This document shows positions 7,191 through 56,270 of a stretch of 64,000 bases of DNA, piece by piece. Position numbers and translations under genes: made by a program. Source of the stretch: Eutreptiella sp. 'Long Island Sound 2002' (taxonomy: Eukaryota > Euglenozoa > Euglenophyceae > Eutreptiales > Eutreptiaceae). The notes under the pieces are model-generated. The model was given only the letters and a program-made list of their open reading frames with translations. It was not told the origin of the DNA and did not search any database. Position 1 is the stretch's first letter, and every line of letters begins with the position of its first letter. The stretch spans positions 32,751,672 to 32,815,671 of the forward strand of contig OZ038388.1 in NCBI GenBank assembly GCA_964036045.1, written 5' to 3'.

Positions 7191-7305
7191 CAGCCATGGC
7201 CTAGTGGGGGGCCTCCAGGTCTCCCCATTCCCGCCTTCAGCCACATGAAACACACTCGCACACATGGCGCACGCGACGCACACAGCCCTCCCGTTGACCT
7301 GTACC

Positions 7306-7470
7306 CACCACACCACACCACACCACACCACACCACACCACACCACACCACACCACACCACTCCACGCCACACCACACCAAACCACACCACACCAAACCA
7401 CACCACACCACACCACACCACACCACACCACACCACACCACACCACACCACACCACACCACACCACACCA
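7306..7470. repeat. (CCACA)n microsatellite
   Basis: About 33 copies of the pentamer CCACA with a few substitutions. It lies in what should be the intron downstream (minus strand) of the kelch exon ending at 7490. All six frames are open, giving spurious His/Pro/Thr or Val/Trp/Cys repeats that are not genes. Confidence 0.95.
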
Positions 7471-7489
7471 TACCAAAGCAGCAACATAC

Positions 7490-8011
7490 CTCCCATGACT
7501 ATCAACTTGCCCTCCAGGACAACAGCTGAACAGCCTTGCCGTCTGGTATTCATGCTTGGCAGAAAATACCAAGCGTTCTCGACCGGGCAGTACTGTTCCA
7601 CAGTGTTCAGCTTGTTGAAGTCTTGATCACAGCCGCCGATGACAATCACCCGCCCATTCAGCTCTGCGCAGGCGCAGAACGCGCGCCGCGTGAGCATGTC
7701 TGCAACGGGCATCCACACTCCTTTCCCAGAGTGATACCTCTCAGCCTTGGACATCACTCCATCCACTCCTATACCCCCCATGACCATCGGACGCTGGTCA
7801 CATAAGCACGCAGCCCCGGCGGATCTCGCATGCAGCATGGGCGCAATGCGACTCCAGGCGCGCGTTCGCACATTGTACTCCTCGACATCGGCTGAATGCT
7901 GCTCGTAGAAGCCACCCATTACCATCACACTGTCACCTGGGAATGTACACATGTGGCCCAACGCTACCACCGTGCAGGACTGCGAATACATCTCGCTGTC
8001 AGTGATACCAA
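7490..8011 (-). CDS. Kelch-repeat protein, second visible exon
   Basis: The minus-strand translation carries three kelch repeats with the usual GG pair and following Tyr/Trp: VMVMGGF...VEEYNVRTRAW, MVMGGIG...AERYHSGKGVW and VIVIGGC...VEQYCPVENAW, then a fourth begins at KLIVMGG. The exon ends at a good donor (GGAG then GTATGT) at 7490/7489. A CAG acceptor just above 8011 restores the frame from the upstream exon (one base there plus two here). Kelch repeats form beta-propellers that bind protein partners. The fourth repeat's continuation is not found: the microsatellite and the LINE follow. The gene may continue beyond the LINE or be cut off by it. An acceptor nearer the first kelch strand is an alternative. 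Confidence 0.7.
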
Positions 8012-8533
8012 CTGCCGCAGCAGCCCCTCAGCAGGGTGTGGCAAGAAATGAAACAGGGGGAAAAAATTGCGCCACAACCACACTGGCACCCCCACGTGTC
8101 ACTGAGAACATAAAGTTCCCCCAAAAAAAATGCATCGCCCCCCCAAAAAATCTATAGCCCCCAAAAATTTATAGCCCCCTCGGGTAATGGGCGTTTTGCC
8201 AAAATCTGCAGCCCCTGAGCCACGTACAAGCAAACAGAACACGAACAAATCCAGGCTACAGTTTCAACACCACTGCATGCAGCACCTCCCCGCCCAAAAT
8301 TTATGCCCCCTTGGCCTTGTTGAGTGTCTTGCTAAGATCTAGACCCCGGGGAAAACATTTGGGAGGGGGACGTTTACGCCCCGCAATAGTAGTACTATGA
8401 AGCCTATCCGCCCCAGACCGCCAACTGAAACAATGACCCACACAACCTCGAGGCATGTCAGACCACACGCCCAGCAACCCAAAAAGCACTTGCATACGAT
8501 ACGCACTCGCAGCCCACCCCTTGCCTGCCATAC

Positions 8534-9356
8534 CCGTGGCCACAGCCGAGCAGCTGGCCCTCTTGGCCGTCATGTCAGGCAGGTACTTCCAGCGTGCGGT
8601 CTTCGGATCGTACTCCTCGGCGGACCGAAGGGGCAGCATGTTCTCATCCTTGCCACCAACCGTCACCACTTTCCCGTCCAGCTGCACAACGCTGCAGTTG
8701 GCCCGCTTTCGCAGCATCGGAGGAAGCTCCTCCCATCGGCAGGTCACGGGATTGTACATCTCGGTCCTCGCCAAGACGCCGTCGTCGGTGTTCGACCCGC
8801 CGGCGGTCAGGACGCATGGCTGCCACACAGGCACCGTCTGAGGGCGTGGGCTTGCGCCCCGGGCCCGCTTCGTAGACTTCCGCTCTGCTTTCAGTGTGGA
8901 GCCGTCTTTCATGTACGACACCAACTCGCTGAACCACTTCCCATTCTGATCGATCACCTCGTACCCGTCACAGGCCGCCCTCTCCGGCGGAAACGTCTTA
9001 CAGCGGAGCAGCGATGACTGAAAATCATCCCTGCGGTATCTCATGGCAGCCCTGCGCGATGCGCCCGGGCTGCTGTCCCGAATGTCCTGTTGGTTGTTCA
9101 ATTCTTGGGCCATCATTCGCTTCTCGACGAAGGCCTGCCATTGCGCATGCAATTCATGCTCTTGGTTTTCCAACCCCTTCTGCAACACCTCCACCAAACG
9201 TTGAACATGCTGCACGTAAATGTCCACTGCCCGGTTTGAGACGTACACCCGACTCATCACGCGAGAAACGGGATTCTGGGGGACTACGAAGCGGCTGCCA
9301 TAGTGATCCTGCACACGATAATGCAGAATGCGGGGACATCTATCCACGCACATCAC
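8534..9356 (-). CDS. Kelch-repeat protein, first visible exon
   Basis: From the Met at 9356 the minus strand reads through about 160 residues of charged, partly helical sequence (VQHVQRLVEVLQKGLENQE suggests a coiled coil; SKT-KRARGASPR is basic), then two kelch repeats: VLTAGG...TEMYNPVTCRWEELPPM and KVVTVGG...AEEYDPKTARWKYLPDM. The exon stops at GCCACGG followed by GTATGG, a plausible donor at 8534/8533. The intron to 8012 is about 520 bp and AT-richer, with several C-runs. The start codon is uncertain: two adjacent Met codons at 9356 are the first in frame, but an upstream exon could feed in. The protein type is secure; the substrate or partner cannot be told. Confidence 0.7.
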
Positions 9357-9789: not shown

Positions 9790-10270
9790 CTGCCTTAAAT
9801 TGCATTGCCTTCGGCAAGGCACCTCGAAGAGGAGAGAGGGAGGACCATTCTTGAGCTGCCCAGGCTGGAAGACTGCGTAAGCAGGTTGTGCCCCAGCCCC
9901 CTTGGGAGCCCCCTCCCCCCCCCCAACACCCAAATAGGGTGAAAAACACATGAAGAGGGGCTAAAACATGCTGTACATAGGATATTTTATCGTTTTGGAT
10001 TGTCAGAATATCAGGAAAAGCGGTTTCAGAAATTTCCATTTTTGAGCTGCGGAGGCTGGAAAACTGCGTAAGCAGGTTGTGCCCTAGCCCCCTTGGGAGC
10101 CCCCTCCCCCCCCCCCCCAACAATAGGGTGAAAAACACATAAAGAGGGGCTAACACATGCTTTACATAGGGTACTGAATCATTTTGGATGGTCAAAATAT
10201 AAAAAAAATCAGTTTCAGAAATTTCCATTTTTGAGCTGCCAAGGTTGGAAAACTGCATGAGCAGGTTGTG
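9790..10270. repeat. ~190-bp satellite, short array (locus 1)
   Basis: About 2.5 copies of a unit with TTGAGCTGCC...GGCTGGAA, GCAGGTTGTG, a C-run, AATAGGGTGAAAAACACAT and a CATGCTNTACATAGG block. The GAGCTG landmark lies at 9853, 10044 and 10233, giving a period of about 190. The same family occurs at 55.07-56.27 kb. The long open frames across it are artefacts. Confidence 0.9.
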
Positions 10271-33479: not shown

Positions 33480-36422
33480 GGCAAAGTACCACCGCACAAA
33501 AGTCCCAACCTAATACCGTCCCTATCTGCACAGTACCCCCCCCCCCCCTTGTGCAAACTACCAAAAAGTCCCAAGCTACTACGGTCCCTATCTGCACAGT
33601 ACCCCCCCCTTGTGCAAACCGCGCAAAAGTCCCAAGCTAATACGGTCCCTATCTGCACAGTACCCCCCCCCCCCTTGTTCAAACCGCACAAAAGTCCCAA
33701 GCTACTACGGTCCCTATCTGAACAGTACCCCCCCCCTTGTGCAAACCGCACAAAAGTCCCAAGCTAATACGGTCCCTATGTGCACAATACCCCGCCCTAT
33801 TGCAAACCGCACAAAAGTCCCAAACTAATAAGGTCCCTATCTGCACAGAGCCCCCCCCCTTGTGCAAACCGCGCAAAAGTCCCAAGCTAGTGCGGTCCCT
33901 ATCTGCACAGTACCCCCCCCCTTGTGCAAACCGCGCAAAAGTCCGAAGCTAATACGGTCCCTATCTGCACAGTACCCCCCCCCCTTGTTCAAACCGCACA
34001 AAAGTCCCAAGCTACTACGGTCCCTATCTGCACAGTACCCCCCCCTCCCTTGTGCAAACCGCGCAAAAGTCCCAAGCTAATGCGGTCCCTATCTGCACAG
34101 TACCCCCCCCCCTGTTCAAACCGCACAAAAGTCCCAAGCTAATACGGTCCCTATCTACACACTATCCCCCCCCTTGTGCAATCCGCACAAAAGTCCCAAG
34201 CTAATACGGTCCCTATCTACACACTATCCCCCCCCCCTTGTGCAAACCGCGCAAAAGTCCGAAGCTAATACGGTCCCTATCTGCACAGTACCCCCCCCTT
34301 GTGCAAACCGCGCAAAAGTCCCAAGCTACTAGGGTCCTTATCTGCACAGTACCCCCCCCCTTGTGCAAACCGCACAAGAGGCCCAAGCTACTACGGTCCC
34401 TATCTGCACAGTACCCCCCCCTTGTGCAAACCGCACAAAAGTCCCAAGCTACTACGGTCCCCATCTGCACAGTACCCCCCCCCTTGTGCAATCCGCACAA
34501 AAGTCCCAAGCTAATGCGGTCCCTATCTACACAGTACCCCCCCCCTTGTGCAAACCGCACAAAAGTCCCAAGCTAATACGGTCCCTATGTGCACAGTACC
34601 CCCCCCCCCCTTGTGCAAACCGCACAAAAGTGTCAAACTAATAAGGTCCCTATCTGCACAGTACCCCCCCCCCCCCTTGTGCAAACTACCAAAAAGTCCC
34701 AAGCTACTACGGTCCCTATCTGCACAGTACCCCCCCCCCCTTGTTCAAACCGCACAAAAGTCCCAAGCTAATACGGTCCCTATCTGCACAGTACCCCCCC
34801 CCTTGTGCAAACCGCGCAAAAGTCCCAAGCTAGTGCGGTCCCTATCTGCACAGTACCCCCCCCTTGTGCAAACCGCACAAAAGTCCTAAGCTAATACGGT
34901 CCCTATCTGCACAGTACCCGCCCCCCTTTGTTCAAACCGCACAAAAGTCCCAAGCTACTACGGTCCCTATCTGCACAGTACCCCCCCCTTGTGCAATCCG
35001 CACAAAAGTCCCAAGCTAATACGGTCCCTATCTACACACTATCCCCCCCCCCCTTGTGCAAACCGCGCAAAAGTCCCAAGCTAATACGGTCCCTATCTGC
35101 ACAGTACCCCCCCCCCCCTTGTTCAAACCGCACAAAAGTTCTAAGCTAATACGGTCCCTATCTGCACAGTACCCCCCCCCCTGTTCAAACCGCACAAAAG
35201 TCCCAAGCTAATACGGTCCCTATCTACACACTATCCCCCCCCTTGTGCAATCCGCACAAAAGTCCCAAGCTAATACGGTCCCTATCTACACACTATCCCC
35301 CCCCCCCTTGTGCAAACCGCGCAAAAGTCCCAAGCTAATACGGTCCCTATCTGCACAGTACCCCCCCCTTGTGCAAACCGCGCAAAAGTCCCAAGCTCAT
35401 GCGGTCCCTATCTGCACAGTACCCCCCCCCCCTTTGTGCAAACCGCACAAAAGTCCCAAGCTACTAGGTTCCTTATCTGCACAGTACCCCCCCCTTTGTG
35501 CAAACCGGACAAGAGGCCCAAGCTACTACGGTCCCTATCTGCACAGTACCCCCCCCTTGTGCAAACCGCACAAAAGTCCCAAGCTACTACGGTCCCCATC
35601 TGCACAGTACCCCCCCCTTGTGCAAACCGCACAAAAGTCCGAAGCTAATGCGGTCCCTATCTACACAGTACCCCCCCCCTTGTGCAAACCGCACAAAAGT
35701 CCCAAGCTAATACGGTCCCTCTGTGCACAGTACCCCCCCCCCCCTTGTGCAAACCGCACAAAAGTGTCAAACTAATAAGCTTAAGGTCCCTATCTGCACA
35801 GTACCCCCCCCTTGTGCAAAGCGCACAAAAGTCCCAAGCTAATGCGGTCCCTATCTGCTCAGTACCCCCCCCCCTCCCTTGTTCAAACCGCACAAAAGTC
35901 CCAAGCTAATGCGGTCCCTATCTACACAGTACCCCCCCCCCTTGTGCAAACCGCACAGAAATCCTAAGCTAATACGGTCCCTATCTGCACAGTACCCCCC
36001 CCCCTTGTGCAAACCGCGCAAAAGTCCCAAGCTAATACGGTCCCTATCTGCACAGTACCCCCCCCCCCCTTGTGCAAACCGCACAAAAGTCCTAAGCTAA
36101 TACGGTCCCTATCTGCACATTACCCCCCCCCTTGTGCAAACCGCGCAAAAGTCCGAAGCTAATACGTTCCCTATCTGCACAGTACCCCCCCCCCTTGTGC
36201 AAACCGCACAAAAGTCCCAAGCTACTACGGTCCCTATCTGCACAGTACCCCCCCCTTGTGCAATCCGCACAAAAGTCCCAAGCTAATGCGGTCCCTATCT
36301 ACACAGTACCCCCCCCCTTGTGCAAACCGCACAAAAGTCCCAAGCTAATACGGTCCCTATGTGCACAGTACCCCCCCCCCCTTGTGCAAACCGCACAAAA
36401 GTCTCAAACTAATAAGGTCCCT
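33480..36422. repeat. 62-bp satellite array, left part
   Basis: Tandem units of about 62 bp. The consensus runs AAAAGTCCCAAGCTAATACG, GTCCCTATCTGCACAGTA, a run of 7-14 C, then TTGTGCAAACCGCGC. Units differ by recurrent variants (CTACTACGG, CTAATGCGG, CTAGTGCGG, ATCTACACACTATCC, TTGTTCAAACC, AACTACCAAA). The order of variants at 35.39-36.42 kb is repeated at 47.23-48.25 kb, so the array has higher-order structure. Length changes in the C-run shift frames, which creates long but meaningless open frames. Confidence 0.97.
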
Positions 36423-36441
36423 CACCTATGATTTTATGAAG
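36423..36441 (+). repeat. Left terminal inverted repeat
   Basis: CACCTATGATTTTATGAAG, identical to the reverse complement of 45434-45452. Beyond it, TCGCCAGATCCCAAAATTA aligns with CAGGCTCATCCCAAAATTA at the other end, so similarity extends to about 40 bp. Confidence 0.9.
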
Positions 36442-36659
36442 TCGCCAGATCCCAAAATTATTGTCGCAGCGGATGCCAAAAAACCAACAGAAACTGTCGC
36501 CGCGCGCGCATTTTCACTCGCCGAGAGCAATTTTTGGCTCAGAAATCTGAAAATACGCGATTACGAAGCGCTTTTTGCGCGTACAATCGAAGATACCAAC
36601 CACCCGCACCTTTTCAATCACGATACCCCGCTCGGAACTGCTCCCAAGTCTCGTAAACG

Positions 36660-37340
36660 GTCAATTACCTCCCAAAAAGCCACAATTTGGCCTTTTTTTG
36701 CCATTTTTTCGTCGGAAAACACATTCTATCTTGTTCCGAGAGGCTGCGGATCAATCAAAGGTGTTCCGTGGAACCACTTGACGATTTCCAAAACATAGCA
36801 ACATCCACCAAGCCATCAAGCTCTCGTAACGTGCCAATCTACCCCCATTTTTGGCCCAAAATGCCACATTTTGGCCTTTTTTCACCACTCTTTCATCATA
36901 AAACACATTCTATCTCTTTCTAAGAGGTTGCGGATCAATCAAAGGTGTTTAATGGAACCACTTGACGATTTCCAAAACATAGCAACATCCACCAAGCCAT
37001 CAAGCTCTCGTAACGTGCGAATCTACCCCCATTTTTGGCCCAAAATGCCACATTTTGGCCTTTTTTCACCACTCTTTCATCATAAAACACATTCTATCTC
37101 TTTCTAAGAGGCTGCGGATCAATCAAAGGTGTTCCATGGAACCACTTGACGATTTCCAAAACATACGAACATCCACCAAGCCATCTACCTCTCGTGACAT
37201 GCGAGTATACCCCCATTTTTCGCCAAAACTGCCATATTTCAGCCTTTTTTTGCATGGTTACGGTCATAATATTTGGTCAATGTTGTTGCGAGAGTCCGCG
37301 AATCTTTCTATTGTGTTCCATGGAACCACTTGATGACGAG
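36660..37340. repeat. 184-bp left subterminal tandem repeats
   Basis: About 3.5 copies. The landmark GAGGCTGCGGATCAATC lies at 36740, 36924 and 37108 (period exactly 184), with a diverged fourth copy near 37,290. Each copy contains GGAACCACTTGACGATTTCC and a TTTTGGCC/GGCCCAAAA pair. Such repeats near the ends of DNA transposons are often transposase-binding sites; that role is inference here. Confidence 0.85.
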
Positions 37341-37564
37341 GATGTGGGTTAGGCAAATATTGGTACAATTTCCTCTCCTATATTGAAGATTATGACGCGG
37401 ACGGTGCCAAAAACAGCCATGTTTGGGGGTAGTGATGTGTCCCATGCCCAGCTGCTATGTCTTGTCACGTGCCAACTTGTTGTGTCGCAGGGAGGGTTTC
37501 CATACGATGTGTTGCATGTCACACTAGGTAGGTACTCAATCCTTTAAAGTGCCATTGTTATGAT

Positions 37565-39328
37565 ATGACGAAGAGCAAGCCCCGCGTGGGCCGTCCCCGA
37601 TTGGCCAATCCGTCGCTGAAGACCTTGAGGAACAGAGCTAGTGCCGCAAATGCAAACCTTAAAAGGGCACTTCCCCAGTTGGTGACTAATGCCAAAGCTC
37701 GGAATCAAAAACGTGTCAAAAATCGACAACGTGCGGAGAAAAACCCTCCCCCAGAGGTTATTGTACGCTCCTTATTGGCAAAGCATGCGGGCAAATCGAC
37801 ATGGAAGCAGTTTATCGATACCAAGCAGGATATCAGCGACGATCAACATCTAGGCATTTACCGCAACAAGGTTACTCGCTTGGCCAAAAGCTTAAGGGCC
37901 AATGTTGGTGGCGTGGTGTTCACGCGGCGATCGAGCCGACTCGACCCATGGAAGGCCATCCCTCTCTACTTGCAAATAGCGAACCGCGACCACTTGCACC
38001 ATGAAGGTACATACAAACGCAGCATAAACATCTTCATTGATGGTTGCGAGGTGGCGTGTTACAAACCCGCTGGTGTGGTTACTCTATCTCTTACTCTACC
38101 AACGTTACGGGTTCCACATCAAGTTAGTGCTGTGCTTCGCCTGTGTCATTGGATGGGCACCGAAGAACCTAACGAGTTGAAGCTGCGGCTACGTAATCTG
38201 AAGCTAAAGGAAGTATTGACTGACGCTCAAAAGGGTGCATTTGATGGGCATAGGTATCGAATCACCATGAACTTGGATTGGAGCCTTCTAACAAAAATCT
38301 TGTGTTGGGAGCAGAGTGGTCACGAGAAAGCATGCTGGGCCTGTGTTGCGCTCCGGCGGCATTGGATGTATTGTGACTACATGAAACAACCACAAAGGCC
38401 ATTGGAATCCTTCTTTGGTGGCGTATTGGGCTTTTTCTTGTCCCTCTTTGAGACAATTGACGATATCATCTATGACGTCGTCCATTGTCTTGCATTGGTA
38501 CTCCGCAACATGTTGTTGCACGCTTTGGATATATGGGTGCAAGATATGAGCGCTAAGTACCCACACCTTGTTGATCCGGGATTGTTGGGTCGTTTGCGGG
38601 ATGTGTACAACAAGCATCTCGAACGGTGTCCGTATAGACCTCCGGACAAGCGCGGCCCTGAGTACAAAGGTTGGTCTCCTGGAGGAAATATGTCAAAGGA
38701 ACAAATTTTGTACAATGACAAATTCTGGGATGACCTGTGCGCCGTTCTTCCAACGGCTGCACATGGGCTAGATTTCGGCGCAAAACACCCCGGTGTGCCA
38801 AGTGGAAGCCCCTTGCAATGGTACTGTAGAGAGCTCCGCCGCTTGTGCGTGCAAATGTGTGCCTGGAAACCCGAAGGAGTTGAGCGGCGCACTGCTGACT
38901 GTGACCGTTTGCACCGGGTGTATCAGGCCCTTGGGCTCCCGACGGAAAGGATCACGGTCCAATGTCACTTCTTCCTCGCCCACTATGAGCCGCGGTTGCG
39001 TAGGCATGCAAACTTGCAAGGTGGCAGTAGCGAAGGTGGCGAGCATGCACATCAGACGGTGCATAGAATTGTTGCCGTGCGGAAGTCCAAGCCGAATCAC
39101 AAATGTCCAGAAGGCATGAAAGAATTTGGACGGGATGCGGCTTTGGATCTAGCACTATGGGCTGAAGGTGAGATCCACCTTGAAAACGATTGTGACCACG
39201 CCATTGCATTGCCAAGTATGAGCTTGCAACAACTACTTCTTGTTTTGTGCTGCGTTGCGTTGTTTGTTCAAGGGTCACCAAGGCAAATATATCGTGCGGC
39301 ACATCTCATCGTTGGATTGGGAAAATGA
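37565..39328 (+). CDS. Transposase-like protein of the 9-kb element (ORF1)
   Basis: 587 codons, no intron, starting at ATG 37565. The N-terminus (1-60) is strongly basic with an AT-hook-like GRPR at residues 9-12, suiting DNA binding. An Asp-Gly motif (FIDG, D159) is followed by alternating hydrophobic residues, then NLDWSLLTKILCWE (D238), CWAC (C257, C260), a helix DIIYDVVHCLALVLRNMLLH (around 300-319), CHFFLAHYEP (468-473) and SSEGGEHAHQ (E490, E493, H494, H496). D159/D238/E490-E493 are spaced like a DDE catalytic triad interrupted by an insertion, and Cys/His pairs could bind zinc. The same motif order occurs, from memory, in uncharacterised transposon-like proteins of animals, oomycetes and dinoflagellates; I could not check this. 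The hydrophobic C-terminus (LLLVLCCVALFV) is unusual. It is the best candidate for mobilising the element. Confidence 0.65.
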   Translation: MTKSKPRVGRPRLANPSLKTLRNRASAANANLKRALPQLVTNAKARNQKRVKNRQRAEKNPPPEVIVRSLLAKHAGKSTWKQFIDTKQDISDDQHLGIYRNKVTRLAKSLRANVGGVVFTRRSSRLDPWKAIPLYLQIANRDHLHHEGTYKRSINIFIDGCEVACYKPAGVVTLSLTLPTLRVPHQVSAVLRLCHWMGTEEPNELKLRLRNLKLKEVLTDAQKGAFDGHRYRITMNLDWSLLTKILCWEQSGHEKACWACVALRRHWMYCDYMKQPQRPLESFFGGVLGFFLSLFETIDDIIYDVVHCLALVLRNMLLHALDIWVQDMSAKYPHLVDPGLLGRLRDVYNKHLERCPYRPPDKRGPEYKGWSPGGNMSKEQILYNDKFWDDLCAVLPTAAHGLDFGAKHPGVPSGSPLQWYCRELRRLCVQMCAWKPEGVERRTADCDRLHRVYQALGLPTERITVQCHFFLAHYEPRLRRHANLQGGSSEGGEHAHQTVHRIVAVRKSKPNHKCPEGMKEFGRDAALDLALWAEGEIHLENDCDHAIALPSMSLQQLLLVLCCVALFVQGSPRQIYRAAHLIVGLGK

Positions 39329-39411
39329 CATATCACCCCCCCTTCCCCCCCCCCCCCCAAAAGTGTTTCTTCCGCCTACCACAAGTGAACCCTGTCTTAG
39401 GCTTGGCAATC

Positions 39412-41310
39412 ATGTCCGGGGAGGCAGATGTACGCGACCACAAACGGTTTTGCTCCAAAGCCGAAGCCCTCAAATACCATATCAGTGATGTTTTCCGGGC
39501 GGAGGAGGAACCGGCTGAGGAGCATACCGCAGTGAAGAATGATTTGCAAATCAATTCGGTGGCCTTTGGGCTCAGTGGTCGCGTACGGGAGAAAGGCACA
39601 CCACCCACCGCACCCACCCTCTTTCAAGTAGCATGGAAGGGGAAGGTTACTGGGAAAGTGTTCCCCAATGGTGAGATCGAGCTTCAGCATTCGGATGGGC
39701 CGAATAGGTACAAACCAGAGCACGTGCTACCGAAGCTCATTTATGGGATACGTGAAATCTCGCCCGCGGTAGCAATTCTGTCCGAAGACGCAAAGGCCGC
39801 TCATGCCGCTTTCAACCCGGATGAAGGAAGTAGTAGCGGGGATGTCAGTAGCGGGGATGATGCCTCTGATGAGAGTGACGGTGATTCAAAGAGAAAGCGG
39901 CCGAGCAATGCATCTCCACCATCAGCCGAGAAGAGAAAGAAGAAGCCATGCCTCAAAAAAACCGCGAAGCCAGCGGCAAAAAAGGCTGAGCGGGGGCGGA
40001 AGGCACCGGAGGAGGAAATTCGCCGCGTGCTGCAACGGGTTAGGGAAGATGGGTTATCTGCATTGGATGATACCCGAGACTGGGATGCCAAGAGCATGGC
40101 TGCACTTCTGGATGCATACGGAGCCTACCACACTAAGAGTGCCACGTCAAAAGAGATGCGGTCTGCCTTCCGTAGGGATCTCGATGATGGCCTAAGGGAG
40201 CCCTGCACTGTGCCTGCTGCACGTCCAAAGGAGGCCTGCACTTTTAAGCCTCTCTTGGGAAAGACTTCTGCGTTGTCTTTGGCGGTGGACGACGAGGACG
40301 AGGACTCAATGGATGAGTCAGGAGCTGCACCACGTGCTACCGATTCAAAGGAACATATCTTGCAAAAGACGTCTTCCTTGTCCTCCTTGTCTTCCTTGTC
40401 AATGGATGGGTTGGCCGTAGGACCCCCAAGTAGAAAGGATGAGGCACACGTCATTGCCGATAGTGACGACGCCGGGGACGGTTACATGACTGACAAGTCT
40501 GGGGAAGGGCGAGCACCAACTGCTCCGGCAAAGTCAGTCACCCCTCCGTTGTCCCGCACCCTCTTCCCGGGAAAGCATGACAGAAGGGATGGCCACAAGC
40601 ATGATGATGATGATTACTCCGATATCCTTGAACCAAGGGATGGCGACAATCATGATGATGATGATGACCTCGAAATCCTTGACGATGGCGACAAGCATGA
40701 TGATGAGGACCCCGATATCCATGCTTTGGTGCGGCGAAAGGCCTTCTCTCGAACAGGTGACGTGTTGAACAAGTGCACAGTCAAAGCACGCAGTTTGCGA
40801 GTGGAATCATTTGAATATATGTGGCCCGACCTTGGAGAGATGCGGCTGCACCCAGCCGCACTTGAGGACGAAGCCGATGAATGGCAAGAGCACGTGCTGC
40901 AGTCCATTACGGCTCAAAGGACGACATATGGGCTGCCCTTGCAAGGTGTTTACTTTGGGCGCCTGAAGGGCAGCCGTGAAGGCTCATTCACCAATTTTTG
41001 GGCCGAAAAGCGTTCGGGATTGACGGTCTTTGTGCCACTAGGCCTACCGAAAGGGACTTCATGGAAGGTGAAGGTCATCTTGAGCAGTGGAGAGTACACA
41101 TGGGAAGTTGGTGACCGTGATTATTTCCAAGTTCCTGCTGAAAATGCTCGCTCACTTCTTCATCCAGCTGGTCGCCCCGCGTACTTTCTGGCGATGCAGT
41201 TTGGAGATGCTGAACACCCATTGCCAATGGCCATTGATTCCCCACGTGATGTATGTAGTGTGCAGTGTGCGAATTATAATCTATGTGTATTTGGCGAACA
41301 TTGCACCTGA
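39412..41310 (+). CDS. Acidic/basic accessory protein of the 9-kb element (ORF2)
   Basis: 632 codons from the ATG at 39412; the frame is open from 39247, but its beginning crosses a C-run and is unlikely to be translated. Residues 70-110 form a small beta-rich module (FQVAWKGKVTGKVFPNGEIE) that resembles Tudor or chromo barrels only loosely. Residues 138-200 are Ser/Asp-rich, then Lys/Arg-rich with KRKRPS and KRKKKP, plausible nuclear localisation signals. A helical stretch follows, then an Asp/His-rich repeat region (KHDDDD, DNHDDDDD, DKHDDED). The last ~115 residues look folded (TYGLPLQGVYFGRLKGSREG, WEVGDRDYFQVP). It lies 83 bp after ORF1, same strand. The role is unknown; a chromatin- or DNA-binding partner of the transposase is a guess. 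Confidence 0.6.
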   Translation: MSGEADVRDHKRFCSKAEALKYHISDVFRAEEEPAEEHTAVKNDLQINSVAFGLSGRVREKGTPPTAPTLFQVAWKGKVTGKVFPNGEIELQHSDGPNRYKPEHVLPKLIYGIREISPAVAILSEDAKAAHAAFNPDEGSSSGDVSSGDDASDESDGDSKRKRPSNASPPSAEKRKKKPCLKKTAKPAAKKAERGRKAPEEEIRRVLQRVREDGLSALDDTRDWDAKSMAALLDAYGAYHTKSATSKEMRSAFRRDLDDGLREPCTVPAARPKEACTFKPLLGKTSALSLAVDDEDEDSMDESGAAPRATDSKEHILQKTSSLSSLSSLSMDGLAVGPPSRKDEAHVIADSDDAGDGYMTDKSGEGRAPTAPAKSVTPPLSRTLFPGKHDRRDGHKHDDDDYSDILEPRDGDNHDDDDDLEILDDGDKHDDEDPDIHALVRRKAFSRTGDVLNKCTVKARSLRVESFEYMWPDLGEMRLHPAALEDEADEWQEHVLQSITAQRTTYGLPLQGVYFGRLKGSREGSFTNFWAEKRSGLTVFVPLGLPKGTSWKVKVILSSGEYTWEVGDRDYFQVPAENARSLLHPAGRPAYFLAMQFGDAEHPLPMAIDSPRDVCSVQCANYNLCVFGEHCT

Positions 41311-41602
41311 CAGGTTCATGGCCTGAAGAGTGTTTTTCTTCTTGTGTTGTGCCTACATGTGTCATCTTTGCCTTCTTACTTTGTCTCTCCTCTCCCATAT
41401 GGGCCGTAGCAAATGAGGTTGGAGAATCTTCCAAAGAAAGGATATAGTGGGCGAATTTTTCAATTTTTAGGCATAGTGTGCAACTCCCATCTCCCAATGC
41501 GGTAAATTAGACCAGAACACAACAACACCGCAGAGCACAACACCGCAGAGCTCTTTTTCCTTTTGCCTATAGGTCCATGAAGTCAACAGGCGAAGGCCCA
41601 CT

Positions 41603-42216
41603 TTGCCTGCAGCACCCCAGGGCCCACGGAGGTCGGATCGCGTGCACCTTGCTGACGCGGCGCCCAAGAAGGATGATGGTGCGAAGAAGGATGATGGCGC
41701 CAAGAAGGATGATGCTCGCAAGCGGGATGCTGCACATGCCAAGGAGCTCAAGGCGCACGCAGCTGCCGCCACTGCTGCACATGCCAAGGCCAAGGCGGAA
41801 GCGAAGCTCGCTAAGGTGGCGAATGCAAAGGCGGCCAAGGCATTGAAGGATGCGGCCAAGGAGCGCGCCGAGAAGGAGGCTTGCAAGAAGGAATTGGCTT
41901 CGCAAAAAAGTTTGCTGGCGGCAAGGGCCAACCGCCTGAGTGAGATGGAGAAGGAATTGGACGACCTAAGGCGTAGTAAGAGTTCGGACAAGAATTCGGG
42001 TGCAAGCACGGCACAGGGCATGGGCAATGAGCCCCGCCATGGCGTGGTGCAGGGCACGAACATGGGAACGGGCACCGGGCAGGGTCATGGCATGGTGCAG
42101 GGCACGAACATGGGAATGGGCACCGGGCAGGGTCATGGCATGGTGCAGGGCATGGTGCAGGGTGGTGGTGCGGGACAGGCCATGGGAATGGGGATGGGGA
42201 TGGGGATGGGGCCAAG

Positions 42217-42250
<34 letters not shown>

Positions 42251-42595
42251 GGTATGGGTATGGGGCAAAACTCAAACATGCCTATGGGCCCGAACATGGG
42301 CATGGGGATGGGGTCAGGCATGGGCATGGGTGTGGGCATGGGACAAAACCCTAACATGCTGATGGGCACAGGCATGGGCGTTGGCGTGGGGCAGGGCATG
42401 GGCATGGGTACGGGTATGAGTATGGGGCAAGGGATGGGTATGGGTACCGGGATGGGGCAAGGGGTGGGTATGGGACAGGGCATGGGTATGGGACCTGGGA
42501 TGGGTATGGGTGCGGCAATGGGGCAAGGCATGGGTATGGGTATGGGTATGGGCATGGGGCAGGGCATGGGCATGCACCAAAATAGGTGGTGCTGA
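41603..42595 (+). CDS. Coiled-coil and Gly-Met-repeat protein of the 9-kb element (ORF3)
   Basis: 330 codons. Residues 20-35 repeat AKKDDG; 35-130 form an Ala/Lys/Glu-rich helix (KAKAEAKLAKVANAKAAKAL, then SEMEKELDDLRRSK) likely to be a coiled coil. From about 145 to the end the protein is a Gly-Met-Gly repeat with interspersed Gln, Asn and Thr, encoded by ATGGGC hexamers. The frame is open upstream of the first Met, and the region before it has possible acceptor sites, so it might be a spliced 3' part of ORF2. The repeated DNA means the reading frame could persist by chance, but the coiled-coil half is normal coding-like sequence. Function unknown. Confidence 0.5.
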
Positions 42596-43005
42596 GCCCA
42601 GGCTTAGATTTCGGATTCATAAATTCCCTGCTGTTGTAGTTTCAAAGGCGTCTTTCTCTGTGTATGGTGAATTGTACCAGTGGAGGATGGAAGTCTCCGT
42701 CTCAAAAGCATATTCATATGCCACACACAAGCAAAAAGGTGAGGAAGGTGTGAAGACAACAGTGCCTTCTGTGGCTGCACAGCTGCTCCACTTTCTGTGG
42801 CAGTGCTTTAGTTTACCATTTATTTTCTGCGTCCAACAATCACTGCATGGTTCATCCTGTATTTGATTGTGACAGGCTCCGAAATCTACCACAATGCAAG
42901 ATTCCATGGGCAATGACTATGCTGTGCCAAAGAGTGGCCTATTGTTCCACAAGAGTGTCTGGATAGTGTCTGGATCTCATTTACATGCAGGCCTCTCCCA
43001 CTTGT

Positions 43006-43440
43006 CTATTGTCTGTTGTCTGTTGTCTGTTGCCTGCCGTCAGTTGAGCGTTGTCGTCCATTGTATGTTGTCTGTTGTCTGTTGTCTGCGGTCTGTTGTC
43101 TGTTGCCTGCCGTCAGTTATACGTCGTCGTCCATTGTCTGTTGTCTGTTGTCTGTTGTCTGTTGTCTGTTGTCTGTTGTCTGCGGTCTGTTGTCTGTTGC
43201 CTGCCGTCAGTTGTACGTTGTCGTCCATTGTTGTTGTCTGTTGTCTGTTGTCTGTTGTCTGTTGTCTGTTGTCTGTTGTCTGTTGTCTGTTGTCTGCGGT
43301 CTGGTCTGTTGCCTGCCTGTTGTCTGTTGTCTGTTGTCTGTTGTCTGTTGCGTGTCGCCTGAGGTAAATTGGACGTCGTCCAGTGTTGTCTGTTGTCTGT
43401 TGTCTGTTGTCTGTTGCCTGTCGTCAGTTGAACGTCGTCG
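43006..43440. repeat. (TGTTGTC)n complex microsatellite
   Basis: Long tracts of TGTTGTC alternate with a ~35-bp phrase built on TGCCTGCCGTCAGTTG and ACGTCGTCGTCCA, repeated about five times. It is open in several frames on both strands, with Cys/Leu/Val-rich or Gln/Thr/Asp-rich nonsense. Confidence 0.95.
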
Positions 43441-43519
43441 TCCAGTCGTGACTAGCTCTATTCCTGCGATTCATTCAGAGTTCCTTCAGACGTGGAATCT
43501 TGGGGGTGTCCGAGTGCAT

Positions 43520-44165
43520 GTTCCAATTTGCTGATGTGTTGCACGTCTCAGGAGTAAGAAAGTTCATACAGACCAATTTCTGGATCGAATTCAATCAGCA
43601 TTCTGCATCCTGCGATTCATTCAGAGTTCCTTGAGACATGGAATCTTGGGGGTGTCCGAGTTGATCAGCTTTGCCTTCGCCAATGTCAGCTTTGACTCCA
43701 TTTGTCCATTGGCGGCATGTTCCAATTTGCTGATGTGTTGCACGTCTCAGGAGTAAGAAAGTTCATACAGACCAATTTCTGGATCGAATTCAATCAGCAT
43801 TCTGCATCCTGCGATTCATTCAGAGTTCCTTGAGACATGGAATCTTGGGGGTGTCCGAGTTGATCAGCTTTGCCTTCGCCAATGTCAGCTTTGACTCCAT
43901 TTGTCCATTGGCGGCATGTTCCAATTTGCTGATGTGTTGCACGTCTCAGGAGTAAGAAAGTTCATACAGACCAATTTCTGGATCGAATTCAATCAGCATT
44001 CTGCATCCTGCGATTCATTCAGAGTTCCTTGAGACATGGAATCTTGGGGGTGTCCGAGTTGATCAGCTTTGCCTTCGCCAATGTCAGCTTTGACTCCATT
44101 TGTCCATTGGCGGCATGTTCCAATTTGCTGATGTGTTGCACGTCTCCGATGAGTTTGTTTGTGCG
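43520..44165. repeat. 199-bp tandem repeat
   Basis: GTTCCAATTTGCTGATGTG lies at 43520, 43719, 43918 and 44117, an exact period of 199. Copies are nearly identical, indicating recent amplification. The first copy is joined differently at its left edge. A derived half-unit continues to about 44,235 and leads into the 185-bp repeats. Confidence 0.92.
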
Positions 44166-44225
44166 CCTGTTGTATCTGTGTCAAATGGGAAGGATACATG
44201 TTGCAATTTGCTGATGTGTTGCACG

Positions 44226-45420
44226 TCTCAAGAGTAAGAAATTTCTGGAGCCCGTCTTCGCCAAAATTTGACATTTTTCGTCAAAAATGGGCCAAAAAAG
44301 GCCATTTTTTTGCCAAAAATAGGTTTTTTGCCCTGTTGTGGACTGGCAACGACCCCCCCCCCCCCCTATTTTGAGGGTGCCCAATACAAAAAAACACGTC
44401 TCAGGAACAAACAAGTTCATACTGACCAATTTCTGGAGCCCGTCTTCGCCAAAATTTGACATTTTTCGTCAAAAATGGGCCAAAAAAGGCCATTTTTTTG
44501 CCAAAAATAGGTTTTTTGCCCTGTCGTGGACTGGCAACGACCCCCCCCCCCTATTTTGAGGGTGCCCAATACAAAAAAACACGTCTCAGGAACGAACAAG
44601 TTCATACTGACCAATTTCTGGAGCCCGTCTTCGCCAAAATTTGACATTTTTCGTCAAAAATGGGCCAAAAAAGGCCATTTTTTTGCCAAAAATAGGTTTT
44701 TTGCCCTGTCGTGGACTGGCAACGACCCCCCCCCCCTATTTTGAGGGTGCCCAATACAAAAAAACACGTCTCAGGAACGAACAAGTTCATACTGACCAAT
44801 TTCTGGAGCCCGTCTTCGCCAAAATTTGACATTTTTCGTCAAAAATGGGCCAAAAAAGGCCATTTTTTTGGCCAAAAATAGGTTTTTTTTGCCCTGTGAT
44901 GGACTGGCAACGCCCCCCCCCCCTATTTTGAGGGTGCCCGATACAAGAAAAAACGTCCCAGGAGCAAACAACCTCATAAAGACCAATTTCTGCAGCCCGT
45001 CTTCGCCAAAATTTGACATTTTTCGTCAAAAATGGGCAAAAAAAGGCCATTTTTTGGCCGAAAATAGGTTTTTTTGCTCCGTGGGTGACTGGCAACGACC
45101 TCCCCCCCCTATTTTGAGGGTGCCCAATACAAAAAAACACTTCTTAGCATCAAGAAAAGTCATACAGACCAATTTCTGCAGCCTGTCTTCGCCAAAATCT
45201 GCCATTTTTTGTCAAAAATGTGCCAAAATTTGCCATTTTTTGGCCCGAAACAGGTTTTTTCGCCCTGGCGGGGACTTCCAAGACCCCCCCCCCTATTTCA
45301 AGGGTGCCCGATGCAACAAAAACGCGTCACAGGAGCAAAGGAATGCACATGGACCAGTTTTGGCAGCCTCTCTCCGCCAAAATGTCACATTTTTCGTCAA
45401 AAATCAGCCAAAATTAATTT
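44226..45420. repeat. 185-bp right subterminal tandem repeats
   Basis: About 6.5 copies. The landmark GACCAATTTCTG recurs at 44424, 44609, 44794, 44981, 45167 and (variant) 45353, a period of 185-187. Each has TTTTCGTCAAAAATGGGCCA, a C-run and ATTTTGAGGGTGCCC. Copies grow more diverged toward the element's right end. They mirror the left subterminal repeats in length but not clearly in sequence. Confidence 0.9.
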
Positions 45421-45433
45421 TGGGATGAGCCTG

Positions 45434-45452
45434 CTTCATAAAATCATAGGTG
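45434..45452 (-). repeat. Right terminal inverted repeat
   Basis: CTTCATAAAATCATAGGTG, exact complement of the left terminus, immediately followed by satellite sequence TATCTGCACAGTACC. Confidence 0.9.
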
Positions 45453-48400
45453 TATCTGCACAGTACCCCCCCCTTGTGCAAAGCGCACAAAAGTCCCAAG
45501 CTAATGCGGTCCCTATCTGCTCAGTACCCCCCTTTCCCTTGTGCAGTCCGCACAAAAGTACCAAGCTACTACGGTCCCTATCTACACAGTACCCCCCCCC
45601 TTGTGCAAACCGCACAAAAGTCCCAAGCTACTACGGTCCCTATGTGCACAGTACCCCCCCCCTTGTGCAAAGCGCACAAAAGTCCCAAGCTAATGCGGTC
45701 CCTATCTGCACAGTACCCCCCCTTGTGCAAACCGCACAGAAATCCTAAGCTAATACGGTCCCTATCTGCACAGTACCCCCCCCCCTTGTGCAAACCGCGC
45801 AAAAGTCCCAAGCTAATACGGTCCCTATCTGCACAGTACCCCCCCCCTTGCGCAAACCGCGCAAAAGTCCCAAGCTAATACAGTCCCTATCTGCACAGTA
45901 CCCCCCCCTTGTGCAAACCGCGCAAAAGTCCGAAACTAATACGGTCCCTATCTGCACAGTACCCCCCCCCCTTGTTCAAACGACACAAAAGTCCCAAGCT
46001 ACTACGGTCCCTATCTGCACAGTACCCCCCCCCCTTGTTCAAACCGCACAAAAGTCCCAAGCTACTACGGTCCCTATCTGCACCGTACCCCCCCCCCTTG
46101 TTCAAACCGCACAAAACTCCCAAGCTAATGCGGTCCCTATCTGCACAGTACCCCCCCCCTTGTGCAAACCGCACAAAAGTCCCAAGCTAATACGGTCCCT
46201 ATGTGCACAGTACCCCCCCCCCTTGTGCAAACCGCACAAAAGTACCAAGCTACTACGGTCCTTATTTGCACAGTACCCCCCCCTTGTGCAAAGCGCACAA
46301 AAGTCCCAAGCTAATGCGGTCCCTATCTGCTCAGTACCCCCCCCTCCCTTGTGCAAACCGCACAAAAGTCCCAAGCTAATACGGTCCCTATGTACACAGT
46401 ACCCCCCCCCCTTGTGCAAACCGCACAAAAGTCCCAAGCTAATACGGTCCCTATGTGCACAGTACCCCCCCCTTGTGCAAACCGCACAAAATACTCAAAC
46501 TAATAAGGTCCCTATCTGCACAGTACCCCCCCCCCCTTGTGCAAACTACCAAAAAGTCCCAAGCTACTACGGTCCCTATCTGCACAGTACCCCCCCCTTG
46601 TGCAATCCGCACAAAAGTCCCAAGCTAATACGGTCCCTATGTACACAGTACCCCCCCCCCTTGTGCAAACCGCGCAAAAGTCCCAAGCTAATACGGTCCC
46701 TATCTGCACAGTACCCCCCCCCCCTTGTGCAAACCGCACAAAAGTGTCAAACTAATAAGGTCCCTATCTGCACAGTACCCCCCCCCCCTTGTGCAAACTA
46801 CCAAAAAGTCCCAAGCTACTACGGTCCCTATCTGCACAGTACCCCCCCCTTGTGCAAACCGCGCAAAAGTCCCAAGCTAATACGGTCCCTATCTGCACAG
46901 TACCCCCCCCCCCCTTTGTTCAAACCGCACAAAAGTCCCAAGCTACTACGGTCCCTATCTGCACAGTACCCCCCCCTTGTGCAATCCGCACAAAAGTCCC
47001 AAGCTAATACGGTCCCTATGTGCACAATACCCCGCCCTTTTGCAAACCGCACAAAAGTCCCTATCTGCACAGTACCCCCCCCCTTGTGCAAACCGCGCAA
47101 AAGTCCCAAGCTAGTGCGGTCCCTATGTGCACAGTACCCCCCCCTTGTGCAAACCGCACAAAAGTACCAAGCTACTACGGTCCTTATTTGCACAGTACCC
47201 CCCCCTTGTGCAAACCGCGCAAAAGTCCCAAGCTCATGCGGTCCCTATCTGCACAGTACCCCCCCCCCCTTTGTGCAAACCGCACAAAAGTCCCAAGCTA
47301 CTAGGTTCCTTATCTGCACAGTACCCCCCCCTTTGTGCAAACCGGACAAGAGGCCCAAGCTACTACGGTCCCTATCTGCACAGTACCCCCCCCCCCCCCC
47401 TTGTGCAAACCGCACAAAAGTCCCAAGCTACTACGGTCCCCATCTGCACAGTACCCCCCCCTTGTGCAATCCGCACAAAAGTCCCAAGCTAATGCGGTCC
47501 CTATCTACACAGTACCCCCCCCCTTGTGCAAACCGCACAAAAGTCCCAAGCTAATACGGTCCCTCTGTGCACAGTACCCCCCCCCCCTTGTGCAAACCGC
47601 ACAAAAGTGTCAAACTAATAAGGTCCCTATCTGCACAGTACCCCCCCCTTGTGCAAAGCGCACAAAAGTCCCAAGCTAATGCGGTCCCTATCTGCTCAGT
47701 ACCCCCCCCCCTCCCTTGTTCAAACCGCACAAAAGTCCCAAGCTAATGCGGTCCCTATCTACACAGTACCCCCCCCCCTTGTGCAAACCGCACAGAAATC
47801 CTAAGCTAATACGGTCCCTATCTGCACAGTACCCCCCCCCCTTGTGCAAACCGCGCAAAAGTCCCAAGCTAATACGGTCCCTATCTGCACAGTACCCCCC
47901 CCCCTTGTGCAAACCGCACAAAAGTCCTAAGCTAATACGGTCCCTATCTGCACATTACCCCCCCCCTTGTGCAAACCGCGCAAAAGTCCGAAGCTAATAC
48001 GGTCCCTATCTGCACAGTACCCCCCCCCCTTGTGCAAACCGCACAAAAGTCCCAAGCTACTACGGTCCCTATCTGCACAGTACCCCCCCCTTGTGCAATC
48101 CGCACAAAAGTCCCAAGCTAATGCGGTCCCTATCTACACAGTACCCCCCCCCTTGTGCAAACCGCACAAAAGTCCCAAGCTAATACGGTCCCTATGTGCA
48201 CAGTACCCCCCCCCCCTTGTGCAAACCGCACAAAAGTCTCAAACTAATAAGGTCCCTATCTGCACAGTACCCCCCCCCCTTGTGCAAACCGCGCAAAAGT
48301 CCCAAGCTAATACGGTCCCTATCTGCACAGTACCCCCCCCCTTGCGCAAACCGCGCAAAAGTCCCAAGCTAATACAGTCCCTATCTGCACAGTACCCCCC

Positions 48401-55069: not shown

Positions 55070-56270
55070 ATTCTACTGCCTTCGGCAAGCCCACCCCGCA
55101 GAGAATCTACCCCAAGCAACACACACCCAAAATAGGGTAAAAACTACATAAATACGGGCTAAAACACGCTTTACATATCTTGGATGGTCATTTTAGGTGA
55201 TCATAGTATCAAAAAAATAAGTTTCGGAAACTTCGATTTTTGAGCTGTATAGGCTAGGCTGCACAAGCCAGTTGTACCAATCCCTTGGGAGAACCCCCCC
55301 CCCCCCGCGTCCAATATCCAAATAAAGTGAACAACGCATAAATACGGCCCAAACCATGCTTTACATACCTTGTATGGTCATTTTAGGCAATCACGGTATC
55401 AAAAAAATGAGTTCCGAAAACTTCGATTTTTGAGCTGCCCAAGGTGAAAAACTGCATGAGCAGGTTGTGTACCAATCCCTTCGGAGACCCCCCCCCCCCC
55501 CCCCGCCCGCACGCCCAATACCCAAATAGGGTGAAAAACACAGATGTACTGCCTGAAACATGCTTTATATATCTTGGATGGCCATTTTAGGTGATCACAA
55601 TATCAAAAAAATAAGTTTCGGAAACTTCGATTTTTGAGGTGCATAGGCTGAAAAAGTGCATAAGCAGGTTGTGTACCAATCCTGTTTGACCCCCCCCCCC
55701 CCCACACCCAACACCCAAATAAGGTGAAAAACGCATAAATACGGCCTAAAACATGCTTTACATACCTTGGTTGGTCATTTTAGGTGATCATGGTATCAAA
55801 AACAATAAGTTCGAAAACTTCGATTTTTGAGCTGTTCAGGATGAAAAACTGCACAAGCAGGTTGTGTACCACTCCATGGGGTGACCCCCCCCCCCCCACG
55901 CAATCCCCAAATAGGGTGAAAAACACATAAATACTGCCTAAAACATGCTTTACATATCTTGGATGGTCATTGTGAGTGGTCACGATGTCAAAAAAATAAG
56001 TTCCGGAAACTTTGATTTTTGAGTTGTCCATGGCGAAAAACTGCACAAGCAAGTTGTGTACCCCTCCATTGGGTGACCCCCCTCCCCCCACAACCAATCC
56101 CCAAATAGGGCGAAAAACACGTAAATACGACCTAAAACCTGCTTTACATACCTTGGATGGTCATTTTAGGTGATCACCATATCAAAAAAATAAGTTTTGA
56201 AACCTTCGATTTTTGAGCTATCCATGGTGAAAAACTGCATAAGTAGGTTGTGCACCGGCCCATTCACTCA
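55070..56270. repeat. ~190-bp satellite, longer array (locus 2)
   Basis: About six copies. The landmark TTTTTGAGCTG (or variant) lies at 55242, 55432, 55636, 55829, 56021 and 56215, spacing 190-204, differing mostly in a C-run. Each has AATAGGGTGAAAAACACATA, ACATGCTTTACATA, TTGGATGGTCATTTTAGGTG and ATCAAAAAAATAAGTT. It is clearly the same family as 9,790-10,270. Confidence 0.93.

Follow-up and report, generated by a model that had tools for sequence, protein, structure and literature searches.

A stretch of 64,000 nucleotides from the euglenophyte Eutreptiella sp. 'Long Island Sound 2002' (GCA_964036045.1, contig OZ038388.1, positions 32,751,672 to 32,815,671 of the forward strand; the whole stretch is hereafter the window) contains a 9030-bp unit on the plus strand at 36423-45452, delimited by the termini CACCTATG…CATAGGTG at 36423 and 45452. 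Its terminal repeats, and its alignment with copies found elsewhere, identified this unit as a complete copy of a transposon. Three open reading frames (ORFs) were called within it on the plus strand: ORF1 (37565-39328; 587 amino acids), ORF2 (39325-41310) and ORF3 (41573-42595). A repeat search placed the terminal inverted repeats at 36423-36460 on the plus strand, where CACCTATGATTTTATGAAG is the exact portion of a total of 38 nt, and at 45415-45452 on the minus strand; the outer 19 bp are exact and the full 38-nt arms are 87% complementary. The two end positions were the sole matches in the window to the terminal 19-mer with up to three mismatches, against a mean of 0.01 in shuffled sequence. 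A satellite with a 62-bp unit flanks the element on both sides, at 33491-36422 and from 45453 to approximately 53450, and the unit GGTCCCTATCTGCAC was seen 87 times in these arrays. An earlier reading of this DNA (the original prediction) had described an exact 19-bp inverted repeat extending imperfectly to about 40 bp with satellite DNA on both outer sides, and both descriptions were borne out.

The insertion in the window interrupts a satellite unit in the order GGTCCCT, element, TATCTGCAC, with one T duplicated; the left copy of this 1-bp target-site duplication lies at 36422, as determined from the split satellite unit, and the right copy at 45453. An intact satellite unit provides a view of the empty site, a point in favour of a transposon.

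When the 2.28-Gb assembly was searched in six frames with ORF1, at least 74 places distributed over 26 contigs were scored. All 74 were full length at 99-100% identity and 73 were free of stop codons. Left ends were read at 63 of these 74 places, the window copy included. Both ends were intact in 30 copies; the left end was damaged in seven; and the left end was intact and the right damaged in three (L023, L032 and L034). Among the remainder, one copy (L043) breaks off within the element and 22 had no right end in the stretch fetched, some of them being internally deleted. The 20-nt flanks of the 30 intact copies were identical between copies at no more than 12 of 20 positions, indicating unrelated sites. 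For 13 copies a stretch of 10 kb was retrieved: ORF1 was open in all 13, ORF2 in 11 (632 amino acids in six and 624 in five), ORF3 in 11 and all three frames together in 11. The DNA transposon of the original prediction is thus supported by copies at unrelated locations that have the same ends and the same order of genes (both ends intact in 30 of 63, three frames in 11 of 13). The contrary observation, frames occurring without the terminal repeats, was not made at the 63 places, of which 56 possess a complete left terminus and seven are short of the last few bases. The ends of the element are repeat-rich and the window copy sits inside satellite, as might be expected if it were an artefact of assembly or a repeat of segmental or satellite-borne origin, but the distribution over 26 contigs with precise common ends and unrelated flanks renders such an origin scarcely credible.

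Target-site duplications were scored by asking whether the base preceding CACC was the same as the base following GGTG. All 30 copies with both ends intact possess a duplication, of 1 bp in 25 and of 2 bp in five, and no case of zero bp was found. At a chance of 25% per copy, 25 one-base matches in 30 correspond to a binomial p of 3.2e-11. The five 2-bp duplications are TA, AC, TA, AT and AC; three of the 25 one-base copies also fit 2 bp, and L093 is compatible with both 1 and 5 bp. Site preference is weak, with T at the duplicated base in 12 of 25 and T four bases further in 16 of 25.

Loss of terminal bases was observed for 7 of the 63 left ends. Five start at CCTATG (L004, L009, L035, L073 and L109, the flanking A of L109 being also compatible with a one-base loss), while L081 is shorter by three bases and L095 by four. 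At the right end the final G was gone in L009, L023 and L035, three bases were gone in L034 and seven in L032; L009 and L035 are trimmed at both ends. The repeated loss of CA at the left end suggests that an overhang may have been processed. In L032, CAGGTGCC and a longer repeat, TTTCTAACTGCTGATGGTC, are common to the two flanks, a pattern suggestive either of aberrant insertion or of tandem repetition at the locus. Shortening of seven left ends and of five right ends, the latter by 1, 3 or 7 bases, would also accord with a process in which host end joining of excised linear DNA makes part of the insertions and the one-base matches are end-joining micro-events. The finding of a 1- or 2-bp duplication in every one of the 30 intact-end copies, with the zero case absent, makes this very unlikely.

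Divergence was determined for ORF1 from 43 copies, comprising the top 30 by score (the window copy among them) and the bottom 13 of the 74. A mean of 0.65 of 1761 positions differed from the majority sequence (approximately 0.04%) and 28 copies were identical to it. Divergence this low implies that the element moved very recently, and such close similarity between copies leaves room for movement that may be continuing today. Internally deleted copies, which the original prediction had proposed to look for, do exist: deletions were found in at least eight of the 43 (L001, L003, L015, L018, L019, L022, L036 and L042), a lower bound, since 30 of the 43 were read just 1500 bp past ORF1. One sequence, P0005, was the sole second relative of ORF2 found and looks like a derivative of this element that arose by deletion. 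In L043 the element ends inside ORF2, after position 4979 in element orientation, and the sequence beyond resembles by eye a chromodomain-type tail of a long terminal repeat retrotransposon. Precise ends, near-identical copies at unrelated sites, a duplication of 1 bp (sometimes 2 bp) and internally deleted derivatives can all be read directly from the assembled sequence.

Element lengths could be compared for 26 copies, of which 11 measured 8628-8631 bp, 11 measured 8811-8835 bp and two measured 9030 bp, with two shorter copies of 7747 and 6067 bp. The steps of approximately 200 bp between clusters match the 199-bp repeat unit of an array near the right end, present as 3.2 identical units in the window copy (43516-44146). 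Tandem-repeat finding also identified a left subterminal array of 184 bp x 3.2 (36671-37250), stretches of which partly resemble the right arrays, a right subterminal array of 185 bp x 6.3 (44240-45413) and a block based on the heptanucleotide TTGTCTG (43002-43444). The repeat blocks near each end of the original prediction were accordingly recovered as the 184-bp, 199-bp and 185-bp arrays.

ORF1 encodes a putative DDE (Asp-Asp-Glu) transposase, in which D159, D238, C257/C260, H468/H473 and E493 were assigned from motifs by position. The putative catalytic residues, all encoded on the plus strand, are D159 in IFIDG (codon at 38039-38041; the choice of this Asp is inferred), D238 in MNLDW (38276-38278), 19 residues before CWAC, and E493 in SSEGGE (39041-39043), 20 residues past the second His, as in RAG1. 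The C(2)C motif CWAC (38333-38344) and the H(4)H motif HFFLAH (38966-38983) supply the putative zinc ligands. The N-terminus reads VGRPRLANPSL and includes an AT-hook-like GRPR motif. The comparison sequence was one mouse RAG1 core fragment, the letters of which were checked against the PDB and which does not extend to the first catalytic Asp; the identity of that residue in RAG1 and the RAG1 residue numbers are presumed here. The spacings D238-C257, H473-E493 and D238-E493 are 19, 20 and 255 residues in ORF1, and 19, 20 and 254 in mouse RAG1.

When ORF1 and the mouse RAG1 core fragment were aligned by Smith-Waterman, the best alignment fell on the His/Glu block, with a score of 50 that was reached by 12 of 1000 shuffles. 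The ungapped block score was matched by 10 of 20,000 shuffles for the D/C block and by 0 of 20,000 for the His/Glu block, and the exactly spaced motif arose in 11 of 20,000 shuffled ORF1s. A model of ORF1 places a strand (154-158) ahead of D159 and a helix (490-504) around E493, at low confidence, as expected of an RNase H fold. Taken together, these data suggest that the element is probably a very young autonomous cut-and-paste DNA transposon. The most likely identity of the ORF1 product is a DDE transposase with an RNase H fold, akin to those of the CACTA–Mirage–Chapaev–Transib (CMCT) clade and RAG1, the catalytic assignment being putative and derived from motifs tested post hoc.

Several observations weigh against this interpretation. 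The motif was spotted by eye before testing, so that the p-values are post hoc, and a single RAG1 sequence was compared; a looser form of the motif is not very rare, occurring in 207 of 20,000 shuffles. The distance from D159 to D238 is 79 residues, as against 108 in RAG1. ORF1 gave no match above cut-off in Pfam or NCBIfam, and none in PHROGs (for which there is no curated cut-off) or the PDB, with a weak match to OAM_dimer at E 0.13. The AlphaFold model of ORF1 from a single sequence was poor, with a predicted local distance difference test (pLDDT) score of 41.9, and a fold search with it returned no match at E <= 0.001 and neither RAG1 nor Transib in the best 50 of 350 rows. No relative shows conservation of the proposed catalytic residues, and the ORF1 motifs are known from one sequence. 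The ORF1 changes across the 43 copies comprised 7 synonymous and 19 non-synonymous, and purifying selection was not seen, as expected from a recent burst. Finally, the left subterminal region shares barely more 10-mers with the right one than with the central part: once the terminal repeats were excluded, 13 of the 861 left 10-mers recurred inverted and 10 direct in the right 1990 bp, as against 10 inverted and 5 direct in the middle 5358 bp. That the subterminal arrays are binding sites of the ORF2/ORF3 protein is consequently a guess.

Searches for relatives of ORF1 were also negative. Among Pfam matches up to E 10 none names a transposase, Transposase_21 (the EnSpm/CACTA type of Pfam domain) included. 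Against 5.8 billion proteins, ORF1 found itself alone among the best 7997 candidates by shared words that were scored, and residues 445-545 likewise found themselves alone at E up to 10 among 155 candidates from the same collection. Scans of viral and prokaryote contigs with ORF1 returned no relative; five pattern matches in one scan were not confirmed. An exact match to the 19-bp terminus in a viral contig (L113:6882-6900) was treated as chance.

It might be argued that the mobilising enzyme is not of the DDE type at all, that the chemistry of ORF1 is another and that its RAG1-like spacing arose by chance. A 1-bp stagger is uncommon among DDE enzymes, the fold prediction was uninformative, and the spacing is reproduced in between 11 (exact) and 207 (loose) of 20,000 shuffles. 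A DDE enzyme, on the other hand, fits inverted ends starting with CAC, a regular short duplication and the match in the His/Glu block and, more weakly, the RNase H-like placement of strand 154-158 and helix 490-504 in the low-confidence model. A non-DDE enzyme is on this evidence improbable.

The reading frame of ORF2 encodes 632 amino acids from an ATG at 39412 or 661 amino acids from an ATG at 39325, and the latter start overlaps the stop codon of ORF1 as ATGA (39325-39328). Such an overlap would be odd in a eukaryote, unless translation restarts or each frame has a message of its own. Sequence signals point to a probable phase 0 intron of 322 bp on the plus strand (41251-41572), GTATGT...TTTTGCCTATAG, the removal of which fuses ORF2 in frame with ORF3 to give 982 amino acids from the ATG at 39325. 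GTATGT is the sole GTRDGT donor in 40701-41330; with eleven YAG acceptors between 41311 and 41603, however, a pairing that keeps the frame is not rare by itself. Of 13 copies, 10 have both splice-site stretches unaltered; the region is missing from L036 and L043, and L031 differs in the acceptor stretch. ORF3 yields 330 codons from its first TTG at 41603 and would form the second exon, with a Lys-Ala-rich stretch followed by Gly-Met-rich repeats. ORF2 and ORF3 are therefore probably one gene, so that the element would possess two. The original prediction of three same-strand genes stands as regards the frames of 587, 632 and 330 codons on the plus strand, and requires amendment in that the third starts with TTG and is probably an exon of the second.

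The predicted ORF2/ORF3 product consists of a putative strand-rich N-terminal part, modelled at low confidence, a central part that is acidic and basic, and a tail rich in Gly and Met. The AlphaFold model of ORF2 from a single sequence was poor (pLDDT 39.2). Searches of Pfam, NCBIfam and PHROGs with ORF2 gave nothing above cut-off, with weak matches to CCDC106 (E 1.9) and a phage tail family (0.34), and a PDB match at E 0.096 was taken as chance. ORF3 likewise had no match above cut-off in Pfam or NCBIfam, CFAP143 being weakly matched (E 0.0031); it also matched several models of NCBIfam, at best with E 1.5e-12 and 45.8 bits versus a cut-off of 650, and these matches were taken as low-complexity.

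Elsewhere in the window, the 62-bp satellite amounts to approximately 11 kb altogether, with a long C run per unit, and long stretches of it read as an open frame, e.g. 45788-47554. Arrays at 9845-10270 and 55125-56256 have similar units of 189 and 193 bp (AATAGGGTGAAAAACACATAAA...) and probably belong to a different family of dispersed repeats. At 6888-9356, two ORFs on the minus strand encode kelch repeats (Kelch_1 of Pfam, E 7.9e-28 and 2.4e-18) and are probably exons of host genes; the first of these frames continues into a CACCA array. No match to Rfam was obtained within the window at gathering scores.

The best reading of the element is that of a new CMCT-like lineage with a duplication of mainly 1 bp. 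Whether it founds a lineage of superfamily rank among the RAG1/CACTA-type DDE transposons, with its ends joined to target strands one base apart, is about evenly balanced. On the interpretation preferred here, the element would move by excision. The ORF1 protein would bind the termini, D159, D238 and E493 would cut before CAC, and the 3' ends would be joined to target strands staggered by one base or, occasionally, two. The ORF2/ORF3 protein may act near the ends as an accessory DNA- or chromatin-binding factor, by analogy with TnpA of En/Spm.

The length of the target duplication is a readout of the spacing between the two joining events of the transposase. If the proposed stagger is correct, a RAG1-like enzyme acting at 1 bp rather than 5 would need a different synaptic geometry, which would test the flexibility of the RAG/CACTA architecture, and the duplication would be the shortest regular one in the CMCT clade as described in the literature consulted. 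The transposase may be a distant cousin of the enzyme on which our immune system was built, and the element may add to the variety of transposons with a connection to how V(D)J recombination arose. Dozens of near-identical copies provide a practical basis for a transposition assay. Annotation rules that impose a minimum duplication would overlook elements of this type; one survey of RAG-like elements demanded duplications of 3-8 bp.

Comparison with known systems drew on five papers (PMC12730594, PMC7204232, PMC4411706, PMC11252322 and PMC12455990), and the published traits below are as given there. Members of the CMCT clade are characterised by C(2)C and H(3-4)H motifs, 5'-CA..TG-3' ends and duplications of 2-5 bp. 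ORF1 possesses C(2)C and H(3-4)H motifs between the second D and the last E, by position and in one sequence, and the termini are 5'-CA..TG-3'. The duplication departs from the clade in 25 of 30 copies (1 bp) and agrees with it in five (2 bp), a further point against the interpretation preferred here.

With RAG1, Transib and ProtoRAG the element shares a terminus beginning CAC, the D-19-CxxC and HxxxxH-20-E spacings and an SEGxE block. The N-terminal GRPR is likewise a feature of the nonamer-binding domain of RAG1. Overall sequence similarity was not detected, and CACCTATG does not resemble the heptamer of a recombination signal sequence (RSS), with little in common by eye beyond CAC. A Pfam search of ORF1-3 found no kelch-type RAG2 gene inside the element. 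Transib and RAG-like elements are described from animal hosts and generate duplications of 5 bp (PMC7204232, PMC4411706), unlike the duplication of mainly 1 bp observed here.

EnSpm/CACTA elements are similar in their CAC..GTG ends and C(2)C and H(3-4)H motifs. They are described with duplications of 3 bp, whereas the element described here lacks the CACTA core, has no Pfam match and, against a definition by CACTA terminus and duplication of 2-3 bp, shows 2 bp in five of 30 copies. ESTA, Plavaka, Lanisha, Chapaev and Mirage share the motif set and, mostly, CA..TG ends; compared by description, neither ESTA (TA), Plavaka (2-3 bp) nor the rest of the clade is described in these sources with 1 bp. 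Beyond a paper on a rice miniature inverted-repeat transposable element, nothing on 1-bp target duplications was found in the literature as consulted. Duplication length is described as varying within superfamilies, being 5, 6, 7 or 8 bp in hAT and 0, 2 or 3 bp in relatives of Harbinger, and Spy and other elements of the Harbinger group resemble the present element in demonstrating that duplications of DDE transposons can be reduced to 0 or 2 bp. The Harbinger group differs in its transposase group and is not known to have a zinc motif of this kind.

Such variability in hAT and Harbinger relatives, together with the motif set and CA..TG ends that the element shares with the CMCT clade, would allow it to be a strongly diverged member of one of the superfamilies already named there (EnSpm/CACTA, Mirage, Chapaev, Transib, Plavaka, ESTA or Lanisha), with a stagger reduced to 1-2 bp. 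The large size, the subterminal repeats and a second gene that does not encode a transposase are also reminiscent of En/Spm. Membership of this kind is nevertheless doubtful given the 1-bp duplication in 25 of 30 copies, termini (CACCTATG) that are neither CACTA nor RSS-like, the failure of any Pfam match up to E 10 to name a transposase, and the failure to find a relative from any other genome among those candidates that were scored out of 5.8 billion proteins. The statement of the original prediction that no superfamily could be named holds to the extent that none of the named members with which the element was compared accommodates it, mainly on account of the 1-bp duplication, but not entirely, as the motifs and termini characteristic of the CMCT clade are present. 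Since its motifs and termini are of CMCT type while its duplication is mostly of 1 bp, the element is likened to a CMCT transposon in its mode of working and is placed in no named superfamily.

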